Source: a virus
IMG/VR virus record: IMGVR_UViG_3300030117_006207
Span: 1-35,775 of that record
DNA length: 35,775 nucleotides
Reading direction: 5' to 3' (one strand)
The notes under the pieces were generated by a model that did not search any database, was not told the DNA's origin, and worked only from the letters and a program-made list of their open reading frames with translations. Shown one piece after another: positions 1 to 27,466 of this stretch. Position 1 is the first letter of the stretch. Each line of letters opens with the position of its first letter. The position numbers and the translations under genes were made by a program.

Positions 1-362
1 TTCTGTTTCAACCAACTTGGTAAATTTGCGTGCATTACTCTTACTTTAGTTACTAAGTTTTTAGCAGTATCTTGTTTGGTGGCAATTACCAATATGTTTT
101 TATCACTATGAAATGTCATCATCCACAATGAATATCCAGCAGTTAGTGTTGATAATCCTAACTGACGAGCTTTTAGTATAATGTTAAACCTATGATCTTC
201 AAAGGTTTGTAACGATTTCTCCTGATACTCATAAAGATGAAAAGGAACTTTACCCTTCATAGGGTGCTGAACCATACAATACTTTTTCATAAAGTATGCG
301 GGATCTTTAGCACACATAAGGTATTGTTTTTTTATTACCTCTTTTAATGGAGCAGGTTTCAT
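1..362 (-). CDS. terL: Terminase large subunit, gp17-like (N-terminal part; cut by window edge)
   Basis: Reading the minus strand from the ATG at 362 gives an open frame of 120 codons that runs off the left edge. It begins MKPAPLKEVIKKQY and carries ILKARQLGLSTLTAGYSLW around residues 62-80. This is the Walker A-like ATPase motif typical of T4 gp17-type terminases (ARQLGxST). It is followed by a beta-strand-like NILVIATKQ. The family packages DNA into proheads as an ATP-driven motor and cuts concatemers with a C-terminal nuclease, which lies outside this window. The start overlaps the stop of the upstream gene as TAATG, and AGGAAAG precedes it as ribosome binding site. Family assignment is strong; only the N-terminal third or less of a usual protein is present. 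Confidence 0.9.
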   Translation of the reverse strand, partial: MKPAPLKEVIKKQYLMCAKDPAYFMKKYCMVQHPMKGKVPFHLYEYQEKSLQTFEDHRFNIILKARQLGLSTLTAGYSLWMMTFHSDKNILVIATKQDTAKNLVTKVRVMHANLPSWLKQ

Positions 363-718
363 TATATCTTTCCTAAAATAAATCCAATACCTAACCAAAG
401 ATATTGATTTTCATACCATTTCGGTTCAACTAATTTTACTAACTTCTCATTCATTTCATCACGAGCTTTTAATAATTTGATTTGAGAGTCTTTAGCCTCT
501 ATTAATAGTGAATCAACATTTGTTGATTCCTCTAGTTTTACCACCAATCCTTCACAATCACTAATCACTACCTTTTGAGACTCAATAAGAGAATCGGCTT
601 TTGCCAATTTTCCTTCCCATTGAGCATCACGAGCTTTTATCATTTCTAAAGCTTCTTCTTCTGTAAATGTTGTTTGTGCTAACAAAGGTGCTAATAGTAA
701 TATCCAAAAATATTTCAT
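362..718 (-). CDS. Small exported/membrane coiled-coil protein, unknown
   Basis: 118 aa. The first 14 or so residues (MKYFWILLLAPLLA) look like a signal peptide or membrane segment. Residues 19-97 are charged and probably coiled coil, and the C-terminus (about 102-118, YLWLGIGFILGKI) is a second hydrophobic segment. The predicted topology is a periplasmic rod anchored at one or both ends. There is no lipobox cysteine after the signal; the only Cys is near residue 55. Its stop overlaps the terminase start and its start abuts the next coiled-coil membrane gene, so the two are co-transcribed. A spanin-like or other envelope role is possible from architecture alone. No homologue is recognised. 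Confidence 0.7.
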   Translation of the reverse strand: MKYFWILLLAPLLAQTTFTEEEALEMIKARDAQWEGKLAKADSLIESQKVVISDCEGLVVKLEESTNVDSLLIEAKDSQIKLLKARDEMNEKLVKLVEPKWYENQYLWLGIGFILGKI

Positions 719-1564: not shown

Positions 1565-4500
1565 CTATACGAATTTTAACATTCCTAATATTTGGTTTGC
1601 TGGTGCAAATGCTCCAGTATACTTATACAATTTACCCTTAAACATAAATGTAATACCTTCACTTGGTACAACAGCATCTAACCCACCGATAGCATTTAAT
1701 CTATCCAACTGAGTTTTTAATGTATTTAATACTTTTGGGTCTGTAGACTTTTTAACTTTATTAATAGCACTAGCTAAATCTTTTTTCATTTTTTGTGCAG
1801 CAGCAGATGGATTAGCAGCTATAAAGTCTTTAAGGTTAGAAAGTATTTCGGCACCCAATTCAAAGAAAAGAACTTCCCAATCTCTAATATGTTGTTTTTG
1901 TAATTTTGCATGATCTGTTTTATCTGTTGTTAAGAACCAATCTAAAAATTCAGGATAGTCTTTTAAATCTTTTCTAATTTGTGGCACTTTATAAGACTTA
2001 TCAAAAAATGCCCACCTCTTTGTTAAATTCATTAGAATATCATTTGATGGGTTTGGATAGTCTGTCTGTTTAGCACCATTGTAAATATACTCCATCCAAT
2101 ACGCTTGATGATAATCAGCCAATGTATCAGTATCAGATAGTGCAAATTCATTTTGTAATTTAGCTAACTTACCTAAAAAGTAATTCTGTTTTTCATCAAA
2201 GTTTTTAGCCTTTGGTAAACTAGTTACAAATGGTTTTGTAATACTGTAAGTCTTTTGTATATTTTTATTTATCTGTTTTATCATACCAGCTAACATTCTC
2301 GCACTACCTCTTTCTGAACCAATTGGTGAGCCATTGGCATCATACTCAATAGTTCCGTGAAACTGTAATAGAGATTTATCATAAGGAACTACATTTGCTG
2401 TCTTTGGATATATTACTTCTAAAGACATAAATTTTTTACCTTCTGCAAATATCTTATCTTTTTGTTTATTACTTAATCCACTAATTGCATTTTGTAAATC
2501 TTGCATAGCAGATACAAATGCTTTTTCAATATCACCTCTACCAGCAAACATATTTTGTACACCCTTAATATCTAATGCGTTAGCACCAAAGTTTTTAATA
2601 TGTCCTTTGTTGCGAGCTGCGATAAGTTTTCCATTCTTCCAACTTATCATTATATTTTGACCATCTGTTTTTTCTGTAACTACGCCTTCACTACTAAGAT
2701 TACCTTGTAATGTATTAATAATTAGTGTTTTGAAATCCCCGAATGTTAAATTTTTATTGTCAAAGGGATGATTTAGGTGTCCGTAAGCTCCACCCATAAG
2801 TAATAACTCCTTTTGTTTACTTCTTTGTTTTAATTTATTTTTAGGATTAATTTGTTCAAATAAATCTACATCGTAAGAATCTCCATCAGCACCAGCTGAA
2901 AATAGTGTTCCGATTACATTATCAATAGCTGCTTCAGTACCCATCCAATTTACAACTTCCCAACCCAATGGTTTTACAACATCTGTCATCCAATTTTTAT
3001 ATTTATTTACAGCTCTAGTTGAACCTTTTGCTTGTCCATGATCTAAATAAGTTAATGGTACAGATGTATAATGTTCATCGCCTGATTTTCTTCGAGTATG
3101 TACATCATCTGCTTGAGCTACATTATCTTCAGGATTTATAATACCTTCATCAAACATATAATCTATAACCTTCCAACCTGCATCTGAATATAAGGAATCT
3201 AACCAAGCCTTAGAATCTTTTTTATAAGCATTTAAACTCTTATAGTATGTTGAAGGACCATCATCTAAATTTCCAGCAGGTGTGCCTGAAGATTCTAATA
3301 AAAACTCTTCTATCAATTCATCTGATAAATTATATGTTTCAAATAACTTTTTAAATTTATTAGACATCATATTATACACACCATCATCAAAATATCCAAA
3401 TGTTTTTTTGAAAAGTTTTTTTCTTTCACTATCATCAATTTTTGGATTACCGAGTAAGTTCCGAACCTTAGTTCCACTAATACTACCTGCTTGTGGAGCA
3501 GTTAAGATATATCCATGTTTATCAAAACCTTCCATATCCTTTGTATACTTTTGAAAATACTTACCGCCCAATCTACCTGCATCCTTTTCACCTACAAGAT
3601 AAACAACTGCTGTGGTTTCAGGATCATATTTCTTTAATAAATTTTTTGCAACATAAGGAGACTTTTCCATAACAATACGATTTGATGGAACACCCATTTT
3701 TGTCATGTGACGAACCTTCTCTTTAAAGTTCATTGGATGTCGAGGTGGTTGTTTAATATTAGATGTCGTTATGAAAGCATCATCAACTCTTTTACTTAAC
3801 CATTCGTAAGATGCCAAATGACCAGGATGAAATGGTTGAAATCTACCACCAAATACACCAATAACTTTCGTAATGCGTGAATTTTCCACTATAGAATATA
3901 CAACATTTTCCAGGTGTTTGTCAAGACTTTCTTTTATTTTTTTTCCAGTTTCAGTTTTTGTAAATGGTCCTCTTCTCAATGTTGAAAATTTTACAGGCGT
4001 TTCCATACCAAATAAATTCTTAGGTGCTATAATTCTTAACTTAACCATCTTTGAACTATTATCAACACCCAATGTTTCAAATTCTATTTCTTTATATTTC
4101 TTACCTTTCATAGTAAGATTGTGACCTGTAATAAATTTTGATACTTTACTACCTTTGACAGCATTTGCTTCACTTACTTTTTTATATCCACTACCATAAG
4201 GAACAGATGTGTTTCCTTTCTTCTTCATCTTCTTTACTGTTTTACGGCTTGGAGATGGTAAAAATCCTTTGGGTGCTCCAAACTCTTCAAAGACACTACC
4301 TACTTTACCACCACCAGCAATCAGTTGATATTTTCCTTTTGGATCTTGCTTTCTAGCTTTTTTTAATTGTCTACGAACATCACGTTTTGAGCCTCTGAAT
4401 TGAATTACTTTCTTACCCTTTATAACTTTATAATATCCATAATGTGTAGATGGTTTTATAACCTCATTCTTTTTTTTAGTTTTCTTTTTCATCTTATTGA

Positions 4501-4957
4501 TGTAAGCTCTATAGACAGCAGCTTGTGAAGCCTTACCCATTTCTTTAGCTCTCTGTTCCATAGCTACAGCGGCTTGTATCTTATGTGCGTGAGATTTACC
4601 ACTTCCGTTTATTTTACTAACAGATGCTTTGGCATCCTTAACTGTAGCAAACTTTAATCCTTTGATTGTTCCCTTTGGATTCTCATCTGTATATAAATCT
4701 GAATGACTTGATGATTGTCTGTGTTGTCCTTTTTTACGAGGTTTTCTTGGTGCTTCATTCACTTTCTTTACTATTCTAAATTTTAGTGCAGGTCTACCAT
4801 TAATAAGTAAGTCTCCCTTATCATTAAAATCAATGGTTTTCACCACCACTTTTTTATTCTTAAATCTACCCATAAGTATGGTATCACCCACATCTACAGG
4901 TATTTTTACATCCTCTGTTAGAAAAGGCTTTATAAGTTCTTTTGTAAGTTTATTCAT
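1565..4957 (-). CDS. Multidomain protein: NMNAT/cytidylyltransferase-like domain fused to KxDG polynucleotide-ligase-like domain
   Basis: 1130 aa. Residues 1-65 form a small basic beta domain. Residues 85-160 include DENPKGTIKGLKFAT and a Lys-rich helix. Residues 366-500 are a nucleotidyltransferase fold with GRFQPFHPGH (371-380) and ISGTKVR (493-499), as in NMN adenylyltransferases and cytidylyltransferases. Residues 757-1130 carry ligase-family motifs: TEKTDGQN (761-768, candidate nucleotidyl lysine K763), LEVIYP (846-851), EGITFMF (1100-1106) and KLYKYTG (1109-1115). About 250 residues separate motifs IIIa and IV, implying an inserted helical region. RNA repair, NAD metabolism or a packaged head-associated enzyme are all possible. 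The chosen ATG has no Shine-Dalgarno and lies 4 nt after an ATATTTAT element. Domain calls are firm; the combined role is unknown. Confidence 0.85.
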   Translation of the reverse strand: MNKLTKELIKPFLTEDVKIPVDVGDTILMGRFKNKKVVVKTIDFNDKGDLLINGRPALKFRIVKKVNEAPRKPRKKGQHRQSSSHSDLYTDENPKGTIKGLKFATVKDAKASVSKINGSGKSHAHKIQAAVAMEQRAKEMGKASQAAVYRAYINKMKKKTKKKNEVIKPSTHYGYYKVIKGKKVIQFRGSKRDVRRQLKKARKQDPKGKYQLIAGGGKVGSVFEEFGAPKGFLPSPSRKTVKKMKKKGNTSVPYGSGYKKVSEANAVKGSKVSKFITGHNLTMKGKKYKEIEFETLGVDNSSKMVKLRIIAPKNLFGMETPVKFSTLRRGPFTKTETGKKIKESLDKHLENVVYSIVENSRITKVIGVFGGRFQPFHPGHLASYEWLSKRVDDAFITTSNIKQPPRHPMNFKEKVRHMTKMGVPSNRIVMEKSPYVAKNLLKKYDPETTAVVYLVGEKDAGRLGGKYFQKYTKDMEGFDKHGYILTAPQAGSISGTKVRNLLGNPKIDDSERKKLFKKTFGYFDDGVYNMMSNKFKKLFETYNLSDELIEEFLLESSGTPAGNLDDGPSTYYKSLNAYKKDSKAWLDSLYSDAGWKVIDYMFDEGIINPEDNVAQADDVHTRRKSGDEHYTSVPLTYLDHGQAKGSTRAVNKYKNWMTDVVKPLGWEVVNWMGTEAAIDNVIGTLFSAGADGDSYDVDLFEQINPKNKLKQRSKQKELLLMGGAYGHLNHPFDNKNLTFGDFKTLIINTLQGNLSSEGVVTEKTDGQNIMISWKNGKLIAARNKGHIKNFGANALDIKGVQNMFAGRGDIEKAFVSAMQDLQNAISGLSNKQKDKIFAEGKKFMSLEVIYPKTANVVPYDKSLLQFHGTIEYDANGSPIGSERGSARMLAGMIKQINKNIQKTYSITKPFVTSLPKAKNFDEKQNYFLGKLAKLQNEFALSDTDTLADYHQAYWMEYIYNGAKQTDYPNPSNDILMNLTKRWAFFDKSYKVPQIRKDLKDYPEFLDWFLTTDKTDHAKLQKQHIRDWEVLFFELGAEILSNLKDFIAANPSAAAQKMKKDLASAINKVKKSTDPKVLNTLKTQLDRLNAIGGLDAVVPSEGITFMFKGKLYKYTGAFAPANQILGMLKFV

Positions 4958-11069: not shown

Positions 11070-11240
11070 ATGAAAAAGAAATATTCTTTTACTATAGAAG
11101 AGGGCTTAGTAGACTGGTTTAGAACATATGTTAGAGAAGAAAGTACTACAATGTCTGCAGTACTTAACCAACATATACTAAAGCTTAAAAGGTCTACTGA
11201 AAAACCTAAAAAATTACTTACTAGTCAAAAAATACATTAG
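11070..11240 (+). CDS. Ribbon-helix-helix (Arc/MetJ/CopG-type) small DNA-binding protein
   Basis: 56 aa, one of only two plus-strand genes. KKYSFTIEEGLVDWF gives the beta strand and helix A. REESTTMSAVLNQHILKLK gives the turn and helix B, the usual RHH fold, and a basic tail follows. The start at 11070 is chosen because GGAG (11057-11060) lies 9 nt before it; the in-frame ATG at 11055 itself overlaps that GGAG and has no site of its own. RHH proteins bind operators as dimers, so local repression of the divergent fibre promoter or of itself is a natural inference. Its last 20 nt overlap the end of the convergent Mre11-Rad50 gene. Confidence 0.7.
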   Translation: MKKKYSFTIEEGLVDWFRTYVREESTTMSAVLNQHILKLKRSTEKPKKLLTSQKIH

Positions 11241-14200
11241 AAAAATTATTCTCTTTCTTTATTTCTAAGAGAGTATCTACAGCATCTCTCATAGAATCTA
11301 TATGAGAAACAATCATCGTAAACTGAAATTGTGATTTCAGATATTGGAACAGATTGTAGACAGAGTTCAAATTGTCTGAATCCATAGTTCCCCAACCTTC
11401 GTCAATTGCCAGAAAGTTAGCAGCTGGTAAGTTACTTACATTTACTAATCCCACCCGTATGGCTAGAGAGGAGATAAATCTCTCCATACCGCTAGATAAT
11501 TCAAGAGGCCATACATTGTCATCATCGTACACTATGTAACAATTAATATTCTTACCATCCATTTCCAATATCATAGAAAAGTCTACTATCTGTGCTAGTA
11601 TATCGTTTACAGCACCCTCAACAGTTGGAAGTGCTTTAGATATTAACTCATACGGAATACCATCTCTTTTTATAGCATCCATATAATATTGGTAAGCAGC
11701 ATATTTATCCTCTAACTCTTCTACTTTCTTTATGTTCTGCATAATAGTTTTTCGTTGAGTTTCTAAGACTTTTATTTCACCATTTACAGATTGAAGTTTT
11801 TTATCTCTATCTTCTATAATATCTTCTATTATATCAGATTGTTGTTGTGCATCTTCAATTTTATTAGTTAGCTTTCTATTAAATATGATATCCATTTCTT
11901 GTTCGTGGTATAGATTAATCTTATCTTCTATGATTGCTAATTGACTAATCAGATTCTTTCTTTTTTCAGTAGTAAGTTTCTTCTCACTATCTAATTTACT
12001 GATATTGGTTGTTAACAAACTCAGGCTATTTATAGACTCATCCATCTGTTCTTTGTGTGCAGTAATATGAGATAAACCATTTATAATGTCATCCAAGTTA
12101 TCAGATTGTTTTACAAAAGTATCTGCTAACATTTTATCATCATTTAGCTTTTTTCTTGTTTCCATAGCATCTAATGTAAACGGATTTGCCATGCAGTAAG
12201 AGCAATTAGAATCGTATTCTAAATTACCAAGCTTTTCAATCTTATCTAACTTATTCTTTACTTCTATTTTTAGTTTGTCAATTTCAATTTGATTATTACT
12301 CTTATCTAATTTATACTGTTCTAATTGAGCAAACTTCTTATCAATCTCATTTTCTCTGTAGATTTTTATCTTTTCATTTAGTTCAGTTTCCTCTACAGAA
12401 AATTGTTCTGATAATGTGGCAATCTCACCAACTCTTTCATCTACTTTATTTAGAGAATTTGTTAGATTAATTTTTCTTTCTTGTAACTCATCTAAACTTT
12501 CAGCAGTTTCATCAACCTTTTTAAGTTGTTTAGTAAGTTCAATAATTTTTTTATCATATTTTTTCTTATCGGAAACTAACTCTTTTTTCTTAGCAGTTAA
12601 TTCTTTAGAATCTTTTTTCATATCAACTAATTCTGTTTTAATTTCTGCTAAATCCTTATCGTAATTATTTTTAGAAAATGATTTAAGAAGTGATTGTACA
12701 TCGTGAATTTCATCAGCAGCTAAATTATATAATTGGTCAAATACACCAATACCCATAAATTGTGCTAGTAAGTCTTTTCTTTCTTTTTGTGTCTTATCAA
12801 TAAAAACAGTTGAGTTAGATTGTAAAGATAATGAGGTCATAATAAAATCTTCGTATGTACCAATTACCTTACGAATATTTACATCCGTTGTTCTTCTTTG
12901 ATCTCCATTCATAGAAATTTTTTCACCATCATCAGCAAATGTATAGAAATCCACATTAACTTTTACATGACCATTTCTCTGTTTTTTGCCTGTCCTTTCT
13001 ATAAAGTATTCTACACCATCTACTTCTAATGTAGCCTTACAATAGAAATTATCTTTTTTACTATTAAGGACATTTATAGCTTTGTAAGCTCTAGAAGATG
13101 TATCGAATAAACAAAATGAAAGAGCATCTAATAATGAAGATTTACCACTTGCGTTTGGTGCGAACATTCCGATTATACCACTTAGTTTTGTGAAATCAAC
13201 CACATTGTTTTCTCCATAACTAAACATATTATCAAACTCAAACTTTTTGACTTGCCAGGTTACACCTCTATTTACATTATCCTCAGGTAATTTGACATTG
13301 AGTTCTTCATTGATTTTCTTAATATCGATAAGTGTATTTTCATCAACAAAATGATTTGTTTTGAGATATTCTTCTATTAAGCCGTACTGATAATCAGCAT
13401 CTCTAATATTTCCTACTGTAATTCTCTGACCACGTACCTTTTCTATAGCTGAAAATGAGTCTGTTTTTGTAACCGATACTTCTTTTATTCCATACTTACT
13501 ATGGATAAGAGTCATAGCTTTCTTTAACTGTGATGGTGTAGTTTCAGAAACCCTAACTCTTAATCGAGCCTTCTTTGGCATATCAGGACACTCGGGAACT
13601 TGCCCATCTTTTATATCTAAAGTATAATAGCCGTAGTCATTTGGTATTTCAATATACTCTGACTTTCTCTTTGGAACATCCCACAATAAATAACCGTGGC
13701 TCAGTCCTTCACCATGATTTTGTTGAACTAAACTACCACAATAGGATATGGTTTCTTTTTTATTAAGATGCTGTCTTTTGTGGATGTCACCTAGCAATCC
13801 CAAATCGTAACCTTTGAACTTAGAGATTTTAACATCAGATGGTAAGAAAAATCCTAAGTCCGTTTCTGACTTATCAACTGTTCCGTGAAAAAGAACTACC
13901 TTAGTATCACCATCAAAGTCTTTAGCTTCTATATAATCATCTTCTTTTTCCCATACATCCCATACAACAAACTTTACATCAGCACATTTGTATACACCAC
14001 TACGCTTTAAGTAGTGTAAATCAGAATGTTGTAGGTTGTTTACGATAGGAGAAAGAACATCCATTCGAGATAGATTATTTAAATTACAATCGTGATTGCC
14101 TGCAATAATAATTGTAGGACATATATCTGCCAGATTCTTAAATAATCGTGAGAGCTGATCGACTAATTCAGGCGACATTTCGGTTTTAGAGTGAGCTATA

Positions 14201-14376
14201 TCTCCACCAATATAGACTACGGCATTATCTTTATGTTTTTTTACTTCTTCGTATGTACGTTCAAATACTTCTTCATATTCTATGTGTCGCTTTAGATTAC
14301 GGATTTGAATGTCCGAAATATGGTGTATGTATTTTAACTTACGAAAAGGTACTTTAACAACATTTTCTTTAATCAA
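11221..14376 (-). CDS. 47-46: Single-chain Mre11-Rad50 (gp47-gp46) recombination nuclease fusion
   Basis: 1051 aa. Residues 1-260 are a Mre11/SbcD metallophosphoesterase: HISDIQI (19-25), GGDIAH (57-62), AGNHD (92-96), FHG (163-165) and GDIHKRQ (196-202). Residues 374-1051 are a Rad50/SbcC ATPase: Walker A APNASGKSS (406-414), a long coiled coil split by a CSYC zinc hook (725-728), signature LSSGMERF (960-967), Walker B FLAIDEGW (988-995) and VSHID (1023-1027). In T4 and in cells these are two genes whose products form a complex that resects DNA ends for recombination-dependent replication. The start is TTG with AAGGA 6 nt upstream, overlapping the previous stop as TTGA. The first Walker A glycine appears replaced by alanine. 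Confidence 0.93.
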   Translation of the reverse strand: MIKENVVKVPFRKLKYIHHISDIQIRNLKRHIEYEEVFERTYEEVKKHKDNAVVYIGGDIAHSKTEMSPELVDQLSRLFKNLADICPTIIIAGNHDCNLNNLSRMDVLSPIVNNLQHSDLHYLKRSGVYKCADVKFVVWDVWEKEDDYIEAKDFDGDTKVVLFHGTVDKSETDLGFFLPSDVKISKFKGYDLGLLGDIHKRQHLNKKETISYCGSLVQQNHGEGLSHGYLLWDVPKRKSEYIEIPNDYGYYTLDIKDGQVPECPDMPKKARLRVRVSETTPSQLKKAMTLIHSKYGIKEVSVTKTDSFSAIEKVRGQRITVGNIRDADYQYGLIEEYLKTNHFVDENTLIDIKKINEELNVKLPEDNVNRGVTWQVKKFEFDNMFSYGENNVVDFTKLSGIIGMFAPNASGKSSLLDALSFCLFDTSSRAYKAINVLNSKKDNFYCKATLEVDGVEYFIERTGKKQRNGHVKVNVDFYTFADDGEKISMNGDQRRTTDVNIRKVIGTYEDFIMTSLSLQSNSTVFIDKTQKERKDLLAQFMGIGVFDQLYNLAADEIHDVQSLLKSFSKNNYDKDLAEIKTELVDMKKDSKELTAKKKELVSDKKKYDKKIIELTKQLKKVDETAESLDELQERKINLTNSLNKVDERVGEIATLSEQFSVEETELNEKIKIYRENEIDKKFAQLEQYKLDKSNNQIEIDKLKIEVKNKLDKIEKLGNLEYDSNCSYCMANPFTLDAMETRKKLNDDKMLADTFVKQSDNLDDIINGLSHITAHKEQMDESINSLSLLTTNISKLDSEKKLTTEKRKNLISQLAIIEDKINLYHEQEMDIIFNRKLTNKIEDAQQQSDIIEDIIEDRDKKLQSVNGEIKVLETQRKTIMQNIKKVEELEDKYAAYQYYMDAIKRDGIPYELISKALPTVEGAVNDILAQIVDFSMILEMDGKNINCYIVYDDDNVWPLELSSGMERFISSLAIRVGLVNVSNLPAANFLAIDEGWGTMDSDNLNSVYNLFQYLKSQFQFTMIVSHIDSMRDAVDTLLEIKKENNFSNVFFD

Positions 14377-26859: not shown

Positions 26860-27164
26860 TAAAGCTCTCTTATATTTCTATTAATTATATCATTTATTGA
26901 ATCATCATCTTTTAATTGTTCTACAGTTCTTGAAACAAACAATATTGTTGTTTCGTCATCATACAATTCTCCAGTATAAGGATCTTGATATAATTCAATA
27001 GCTCCTGAAGAATTTCTTGTAAGTAATGATCCGTCATAAGCAGATCCTGATATGGCTAGTGCTAATTGAGCTTGTTCTCTTTTTACCAAATATTTTTGTT
27101 CTTCTTCATTGATTAGATTTTGGTAAAAAGCTAATTCATTAAGTTCTTCTGGAGTATACGGCAT
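26859..27164 (-). CDS. Small protein of unknown function in baseplate operon
   Basis: 101 aa, acidic, MPYTPEELNELAFYQNLINE then a Gln/Ala-rich helix and LYQDPYTGELYDDETT. No known motif. GGAG precedes its start, which overlaps the ferredoxin stop by one base (TAATG), and its own stop overlaps the start of the 2290-aa gene. Tight coupling to both suggests a structural or assembly partner, but this is inference. It begins MPY like the ferredoxin and the gp6-like protein, which may be coincidence. Confidence 0.65.
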   Translation of the reverse strand: MPYTPEELNELAFYQNLINEEEQKYLVKREQAQLALAISGSAYDGSLLTRNSSGAIELYQDPYTGELYDDETTILFVSRTVEQLKDDDSINDIINRNIREL

Positions 27165-27466
27165 TAATTCATCTCCAAATTAAAAAAGTCGTAATTCTTT
27201 TTAATATAATGCTCCCATTCAGCGGGCATTTCACTTTCTTCAAAGATAGCCTCAACAGGACATTCAGGCTCACAAGCACCACAATCAATACATTCTTCAG
27301 GATTTATATAAAGTGAATCGGTTTCTTTGGGTACAAACCCATCTTCCTTTGCTTCAGCTCCAGCACCTTCCGTATCGTAAGGCCCGTGAATACAATCAAC
27401 AGGACAAACCTCTACACAGGCTGTATCACAAGTTCCAACACAAGGTTCTGCTATAATGTATGGCAT
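27164..27466 (-). CDS. fdxA: FdxA-type bacterial ferredoxin, [3Fe-4S][4Fe-4S] or 2[4Fe-4S]
   Basis: 100 aa. Cysteines at 9, 13, 17, 21 and 25 (EPCVGTCDTACVEVCPVDC) and at 59, 62, 65 and 69 (ECIDCGACEPECPVEAIF) follow the pattern of Azotobacter-type seven-iron ferredoxins. In those, the Cys equivalents of 9, 17 and 69 would bind a 3Fe cluster and 21, 59, 62 and 65 a 4Fe cluster; C13 is an extra candidate ligand. A short insertion (about 27-50) lies between the halves, and the long C-terminal extension of FdxA is cut to about 25 residues. It is a soluble electron carrier in cells. Here it lies between the DNRLRE-like protein and the giant tail gene, 1 nt from the former and overlapping the 101-aa gene by one base. 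An electron-transfer or structural role in the virion are both possible. Confidence 0.93.
   Translation of the reverse strand: MPYIIAEPCVGTCDTACVEVCPVDCIHGPYDTEGAGAEAKEDGFVPKETDSLYINPEECIDCGACEPECPVEAIFEESEMPAEWEHYIKKNYDFFNLEMN

Follow-up and report, generated by a model that had tools for sequence, protein, structure and literature searches.

Is a phage protein that carries the motifs of two different nucleotidyl-transferring enzymes a single bifunctional enzyme or a precursor of several proteins? This question is raised by a gene of IMG/VR virus record IMGVR_UViG_3300030117_006207, analysed here over positions 1 to 35,775 (the whole 35,775-nt stretch is called the window below). The open reading frame (ORF) in question occupies positions 1565-4957 on the minus strand, has an ATG start and encodes 1130 aa. 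The source is a marine T4-like phage, and the 1,130-residue protein looks like a string of enzyme and DNA-binding pieces. In our best reading it is a polyprotein packaged and cut in the prohead, to which we assign a probability of about 0.7, and would deliver RNA-repair or NAD enzymes at DNA entry.

A preliminary description made from the sequence alone had presented the protein as an NMNAT-like nucleotidyltransferase (NT) joined to a KxDG ligase-like module (LIG) in one chain, in a late region next to terminase. The ORF is real, and the motifs are where they had been placed: GRFQPFHPGH at residues 371-380 and ISGTKVR at residues 493-499 for NT, and TEKTDGQN at residues 761-768 (with K763) for LIG, together with LEVIYP, EGITFMF and KLYKYTG in the same chain. 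Both motif sets are conserved across relatives, and the neighbouring terminase gene was found as well (Table 1). The idea of two unrelated enzymatic modules on one chain held, and these modules turned out to be part of a larger, module-shuffling mosaic. The idea of a single bifunctional chain was not supported as put: the evidence favours a precursor cut into separate products, whose parts are separate genes in relatives. An assembly artefact was ruled out as the origin of the NT-LIG fusion, which reappears in contigs and samples independent of each other.

Module exchange and junction signature

Relatives came from two IMG/VR pattern scans (245 in one and 559 in another), and segments of the window protein were placed on them; labels beginning with L denote their records. 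Modules M1, M2, M3, M4, M5, NT, M9 and LIG (Table 1) are gained, lost and reordered among the relatives. M1 varies in position and in L004 makes up a 60-aa protein by itself; M3 is optional between M2 and M4; M4 shifts relative to M2, M5 and NT, and the M4/M5 order is swapped in L080. M9 precedes NT in L134, L138 and L249, the full order in L134 being M9-M4-NT-M1-...-M2-LIG, and LIG comes before NT in L250. Parts of the polyprotein are separate genes in L003, L071 and L020 (LIG is a stand-alone 421-aa gene in L003). M2 is 73-75% identical to cyanophage proteins of the head gene region, adjoins terL or gp23 in Bellamy and P-TIM68, and also exists as stand-alone proteins of 101-115 aa with T4-like N-termini, e.g. 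MKTFREFTE/A in L143 (here and below a slash follows the terminal Glu).

Extra modules in some relatives are of three kinds: P-loop kinase, CCA-adding enzyme (PF01743, E=1.1e-29) and HD domain. The kinase module is AAA_33/Zeta_toxin in Pfam; its profile matches PSTK (seryl-tRNA kinase) at 1.9e-4 and 4mde-type chains, which we take to be bacterial Pnkp 5'-kinase, at 0.0018. Amid this exchange NT and LIG are kept together in almost all relatives, distant ones included (L250, L251, L253). Among isolates, Microcystis phage Mel-JY01 has the fused gene, with a 639-aa product (WWT39297). Since they stay together even in the very distant L253, a 400-kb rumen contig, the pattern argues that the two modules may work together.

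L253 and L254, both 400-kb contigs of rumen metagenome-assembled genomes, carry distant LIG relatives (25-26% identity) and are probably huge phages binned with bacteria. NT stands in front of LIG in L253, and LIG is a stand-alone protein with a targeting-like N-terminus in L254. Another polyprotein (L060:7140-10798) is split inside LIG into two overlapping ORFs by a frameshift or an assembly error.

The module starts share one feature, a Glu with a hydrophobic residue two positions before it, irrespective of the preceding module. This hydrophobic-x-Glu signature (PhixE) was located within three residues of the junction in 108 of 131 non-redundant contexts (nine module types, distinct junction contexts), compared with 10.6% of random positions. 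The P3 residue was L, I, V, M or F in 94 of 127 cases, compared with 34% before all Glu; P2 varied widely (K, N, D, R, Q, F, V, T, S, E). Glu fell exactly at P1 in 13/13 distinct contexts for the kinase, 4/4 for HD, 2/2 for CCA, 8/9 for M1 and 7/9 for M5, and all 13 distinct contexts upstream of the kinase module terminate exactly in hydrophobic-x-Glu. We also conducted an independent, alignment-based breakpoint scan, in which module definitions were not used and all 20 residues served as controls. PhixE was enriched 3.8-fold at well-supported breakpoints; Cys, a rare residue with low counts, was the only other to come near the enrichment of Glu.

The T4 prohead protease gp21 cleaves after L/I-x-E (PMC9026906); read as a motif, the junction signature is of this gp21 type. 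A predicted structure of the full-length window protein, its quality lowered in part by the use of a mosaic alignment, served for linker positions alone (predicted local confidence, pLDDT, 58.9). In this model E15, E68, E165, E225, E263, E343, E358, E555 and E701 are in stretches with pLDDT <50 and E540 is at the edge of such a stretch; the end of M1 is a low-confidence linker and residues 323-360 form a low-pLDDT linker.

Table 1. Modules of the 1130-aa protein and two further genes of the window
Feature	Position	Strand	Details
Predicted capsid-targeting sequence, residues 1-15	4913..4957	-	MNKLTKELIKPFLTE, terminal F-L-T-E
M1, residues 16-68	4754..4912	-	GDTILMGRFKNKK; small predicted beta module, terminal KVNE
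M2, residues 69-165	4463..4753	-	Basic helical HSDLYTDENPKGTIKGLKF module
M3, residues 166-225	4283..4462	-	Terminal VFEE
M4, residues 226-263	4169..4282	-	PSPSRK..KKMKKKG, terminal KVSE
M5, residues 264-343	3929..4168	-	Predicted beta module, terminal KIKE
Short spacer, residues 344-358	3884..3928	-	SLDKHLENVVYSIVE; predicted site after E358
NT, residues 359-540	3338..3883	-	NMNAT-like nucleotidyltransferase, H377-P-G-H380 and S494-G-T-x-x-R499
Spacer, residues 541-555	3293..3337	-	TYNLSDELIEEFLLE; several hydrophobic-x-E sites
M9, residues 556-701	2855..3292	-	LDDGPSTYY domain, unknown fold, terminal DLFE
LIG, residues 702-1130	1568..2854	-	KxDG ligase-like nucleotidyltransferase, ~220-residue helical insertion; K763, R782, E847, E1100, K1112
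Terminase large subunit (N-terminal part)	3..398	-	phrog_5989, E=3.7e-30; downstream of polyprotein gene
Second likely mosaic virion protein, 322 aa	15987..16955	-	NLLTE/, QVKE/, VLLE/, then zincin-like metallopeptidase

Proposed routing into the prohead and cyanophage counterparts

The relatives share with the window protein an N-terminal tag, M.KLT..L..PFL.E, that in them precedes differing modules (M1, M2, kinase, M4 or NT). In the window protein MNKLTKELIKPFLTE ends in the L/I-x-E pattern of capsid-targeting sequences, an assignment made by sequence alone with a bare motif that is unspecific. T4 proteins destined for the head are directed there by N-terminal capsid-targeting sequences, one of which, MKTYQEFIAE, is removed by gp21 (PMC9026906); internal proteins in the T4 record start with MKTYQEFIAE/A. 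Of 12 relatives whose records were tested, nine had a gene for a protease of the gp21 family (Peptidase_S77), each time 5.8-7.3 kb downstream and on the same strand.

Directly after the S77 protease in L088 (2026-3285), at the position of the T4 scaffold, we observed a 419-aa protein with mosaic segments and an HNH-like segment common to L151.

Virion data come from cyanophages. The core-gene 'cytidyltransferase' T4-GC190 (SSM1_190) was detected in purified virions of S-SM1 (PMC3037559), and NMNAT-like proteins were detected in virions of S-SCSM1 and S-CREM2 (PMC9602691, PMC10665884). SSM1_190 starts with MKKFSAFLNE/A (S-SM1 record), similar to a capsid-targeting sequence, and belongs to phrog_395, the PHROG also matched by the window NT. 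Immediately before T4-GC190 in both S-SM1 and Syn9 there is a DUF6267 gene, whose motifs SVK(W/Y)DGAPA and EGFV...K are of the type of covalent nucleotidyltransferases; its ligase nature rests on these motifs only, because a profile search against the PDB gave no credible match. Since NT stands beside a KxDG gene in S-SM1 and Syn9, we regard this as a cyanophage arrangement and the window protein as a fused counterpart. The cyanophage genes differ from the window in being separate, and no sequence similarity between DUF6267 and LIG could be detected. L145 carries DUF6267 as a fusion, behind a kinase and M2. The DUF6267 genes of S-SM1 and Syn9 (L258:27296-28270 and L255:1800-2762) belong to a cyanophage family of unknown function.

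The earlier guess that the protein may be packaged has gained good indirect support from the tag, the S77 gene in relatives and the cyanophage virion data, from which we infer its location in the virion. Packaging of the window polyprotein in the prohead and cleavage there are well supported and, for this protein, likely. In the mechanism that we propose, the ~15-residue N-terminal capsid-targeting sequence would bring the chain into the prohead, where a gp21-type (Peptidase_S77) protease would cut it after hydrophobic-x-Glu in the inter-module linkers. The predicted products are small basic proteins, an NMNAT-like nucleotidyltransferase and a ligase-like nucleotidyltransferase; they would remain with the DNA and reach the host cell when it is infected. 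The P-loop kinase, the CCA-adding enzyme and the HD domain are exchanged as cargo cassettes at the same sites in relatives. The most probable immediate target of the freed enzymes would be RNA that host anticodon nucleases have cleaved, or NAD, and NT may supply NAD or another A-pp-X product.

The two nucleotidyltransferase modules

In a Pfam search of the 1130-aa protein the sole family matched was CTP_transf_like (PF01467), over residues 368-499 (E=3.9e-10, 40.5 bits, cut-off 21); H377PGH380 and S494GTKVR499, the NMNAT-type motifs, lie in this domain. An NT profile built from 35 relatives matched NMNAT structures with E from 8e-8 to 2.8e-7, archaeal NMNATs being the closest solved relatives, and NT matched phrog_395 with E=2.3e-6. 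NT is NMNAT-like, as had been described; by sequence, NMN cannot be told from other substrates of such enzymes. HxGH is replaced by GxHH (GRFQPFGPHH) in about a third of relatives; NT of this type occurs in L072, L100, L114, L121, L126, L134 and others, where SGTxxR is invariant.

Sequence searches with LIG in Pfam, PHROG and PDB matched neither a family nor a solved ligase, and its hhalign comparison with T4 RnlA was insignificant (E=0.47); a direct family assignment was dropped on these grounds. Still, residues K763, D765, G766, R782, E847, E1100, G1101 and K1112 are invariant across 45 diverse LIG homologues. The motif I Lys (KxDG), motif III Glu and motif IV EG of Rnl1-type ligases are conserved, and the KxDG, K/R-x-K-G-x-I-K, E-x-x-x-P, EG and K motifs follow in the same order as in T4 Rnl1. 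Motif V is an invariant K1112-x-T1114 instead of K-x-K (K-I-K in T4 Rnl1). Because of this K-x-T motif and the lack of a detectable sequence relationship, we do not claim membership of LIG in the Rnl1 family.

A long insertion between ligase motifs IIIa and IV, noted previously, was confirmed: ~220 mostly helical residues separate motifs III/IIIa and IV in the predicted structure. The modelling and fold search of LIG suggested in the preliminary description had a mixed outcome. The AF2 model was of good confidence (pLDDT 84.7, predicted template-modelling score, pTM, 0.80), and its top solved matches in Foldseek, led by an archaeal RNA ligase, T4 Rnl1 and T4 Rnl2, were nearly all RNA/DNA ligases, with weak scores (E 0.025-0.5, TM about 0.2). 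In comparison with a viral library, viral RNA ligases were next among the matches. On motifs and model LIG is likely a ligase-like nucleotidyltransferase. It looks to be under tighter catalytic constraint than NT, because its residues are invariant in the 45 sequences while HxGH of NT is changed in about a third of relatives.

Candidate functions and competing explanations

A ligase-like enzyme accompanied by a kinase and sometimes by a CCA-adding enzyme makes a tRNA-repair toolkit, which suggests a role in RNA repair. According to notes in the T4 record, T4 uses the PseT kinase and the RnlA ligase when its host is a restrictive prr strain. LIG resembles the Rnl1 and PseT pair also in the Pnk-like kinase partner of its relatives; it differs in the K-x-T motif V and the 220-residue insertion, and no phosphatase domain was seen. 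Packing repair enzymes would make them available before any phage gene expression. Of RNA and DNA end repair, both suggested before, we prefer the former, since the modules swapped in by relatives, an RNA-kinase-like P-loop kinase and a CCA-adding enzyme, point to RNA. We rate RNA repair as the main role at slightly less than even odds. For two other earlier suggestions, NAD-linked capping and action on packaged DNA, this analysis gave no evidence.

Several observations weigh against processing and delivery as proposed. Of the polyproteins 45/69 have N-terminal PhixE, only a modest excess over other ORFs (113/262). Hydrophobic-x-E also occurs within folded parts (E413, E839, E1033), so it is insufficient alone as a cleavage motif, and the end of M2, KKKNE, has Lys at P3 instead of a hydrophobic residue. 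The p-values of the junction analysis overstate independence because the contexts are related by descent, with an effect that is still large; low pLDDT at linkers is weak evidence because the full-length model is poor. The window record, a 35.8-kb fragment ending in terL, has no S77 gene. SSM1_190 and the window NT were matched by profile only (hhalign E=0.0016; phrog_395 2.3e-6). Published virion detection concerns the cyanophage NT relative only, outside this phage lineage, and both the ligase activity of LIG and RNA as its substrate are putative.

Could the protein instead be an uncleaved bifunctional late enzyme acting on RNA/DNA ends, with a basic N-terminus that just binds nucleic acid? 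The retention of NT with LIG in almost all relatives would indicate a joint function, yet the modules also occur as separate genes (L003, L071, L020) and as separate neighbours in cyanophages, the junction Glu signature is left without a role, and a repair enzyme made late would be too late for early defence; we find this explanation improbable. The junction Glu residues could be relics of gene fusion or recombination instead of protease sites, e.g. ATGA overlaps giving Asn-Glu. Asn-Glu is indeed common at junctions and relatives show 4-nt overlap splits (L020 8315/8318), but the L020 split is inside M5 and not at a Glu junction, and the residue at P2 varies widely beside a hydrophobic P3 and a Glu at P1. 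We rejected the ATGA-overlap origin because P2 is too variable, and consider relics of any such kind very improbable.

A polyvalent protein could be injected whole, or be cut by a zincin or a host protease in place of the prohead protease; such processing has been proposed for polyvalent proteins (PMC5512222). The multi-domain chain, the location in the head region and a zincin with weak MPTase-PolyVal similarity in the window would fit. The zincin is, however, a separate gene absent from the 1130-aa chain, and the junctions carry the gp21 motif, which zincins are not known to use, with an S77 gene near in all nine records where one was found; the chance of this alternative is small. NAD supply as the main purpose, NT restoring NAD emptied by host defences and LIG being an inactive or structural passenger, is also unlikely. 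Archaeal NMNATs are the best solved relatives of NT and NAD systems of phages are established counter-defences (PMC7824862), but it is LIG whose catalytic-type residues are invariant and NT whose HxGH varies. NT and LIG might further be coupled chemically, NT making A(5')pp-X, e.g. NAD, and LIG using it, with the polyprotein as an exchangeable cassette magazine. In variants of this idea LIG would be an NAD-dependent RNA ligase with NMN recycled, or would transfer pX from AppX onto RNA 3' ends at infection. The coupling idea draws on the chemistry of T4 Rnl1 and appears a long shot.

A prohead-processed polyprotein would combine features of known systems. T4 supplies the precedent for single internal proteins that carry targeting sequences, and Iyer et al. 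2017 (PMC5512222) for polyvalent proteins, which have several domains and are injected. The T4 internal proteins IPI-III and Alt are similar in the short N-terminal targeting sequence with terminal hydrophobic-x-E and the late head-region context (PMC9026906), in a nearby S77 protease gene and in products predicted to enter with DNA. IPI-III have their own gene each and one N-terminal cut (Alt also has a C-terminal cut), whereas the window chain has many modules, repeated sites and cassette swapping. Polyvalent proteins likewise have several unrelated enzymatic domains per virion-associated chain and are predicted to be injected; in the window chain, Pfam found none of the domains that make up the published polyvalent network (zincin MPTase, ArdC, ART, MuF etc.), nor was a relaxase or C-terminal assemblin domain found, and the protease would be a separate gp21-type enzyme. 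The sections of PMC5512222 consulted do not describe NT-ligase cargo or exchange at prohead-protease sites. Phage NMNAT/NadV systems of NAD salvage have an NMNAT-type HIGH nucleotidyltransferase as does the window; the window NT is predicted to be packaged and is fused to a ligase-like module, and not to Nudix or nicotinamide riboside kinase.

In the open-licence literature searched we did not find a cargo string at prohead-protease sites with evolutionary swapping; on the cutting of phage polyproteins by prohead proteases the polyvalent-protein paper alone was relevant. If the proposed processing is true, very common marine T4-like phages pack cuttable strings, not single internal proteins, and evolution swaps head cargo at protease sites; the arrangement would also be a natural template for equipping phage heads with several proteins.

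The second likely mosaic virion protein of the window (322 aa, Table 1) has similarity to MPTase-PolyVal (PF18818, E=7.5e-4, below its cut-off). Its N-module also adjoins other polyproteins, and its C-part is 44% identical to the C-part of the M2/M1 polyproteins in L104, L107, L109 and L130. At 11221-14376 (minus strand) a metallo-phosphoesterase (SbcD-like) is fused to an SbcC-like ATPase in a single 1051-aa chain, whereas gp47 and gp46 of S-SM1 are two genes. A 100-aa ferredoxin-like protein with 4Fe-4S motifs (PF00037, E=3.8e-10) is encoded at 27164-27466 (minus strand) within the tail/baseplate cluster.

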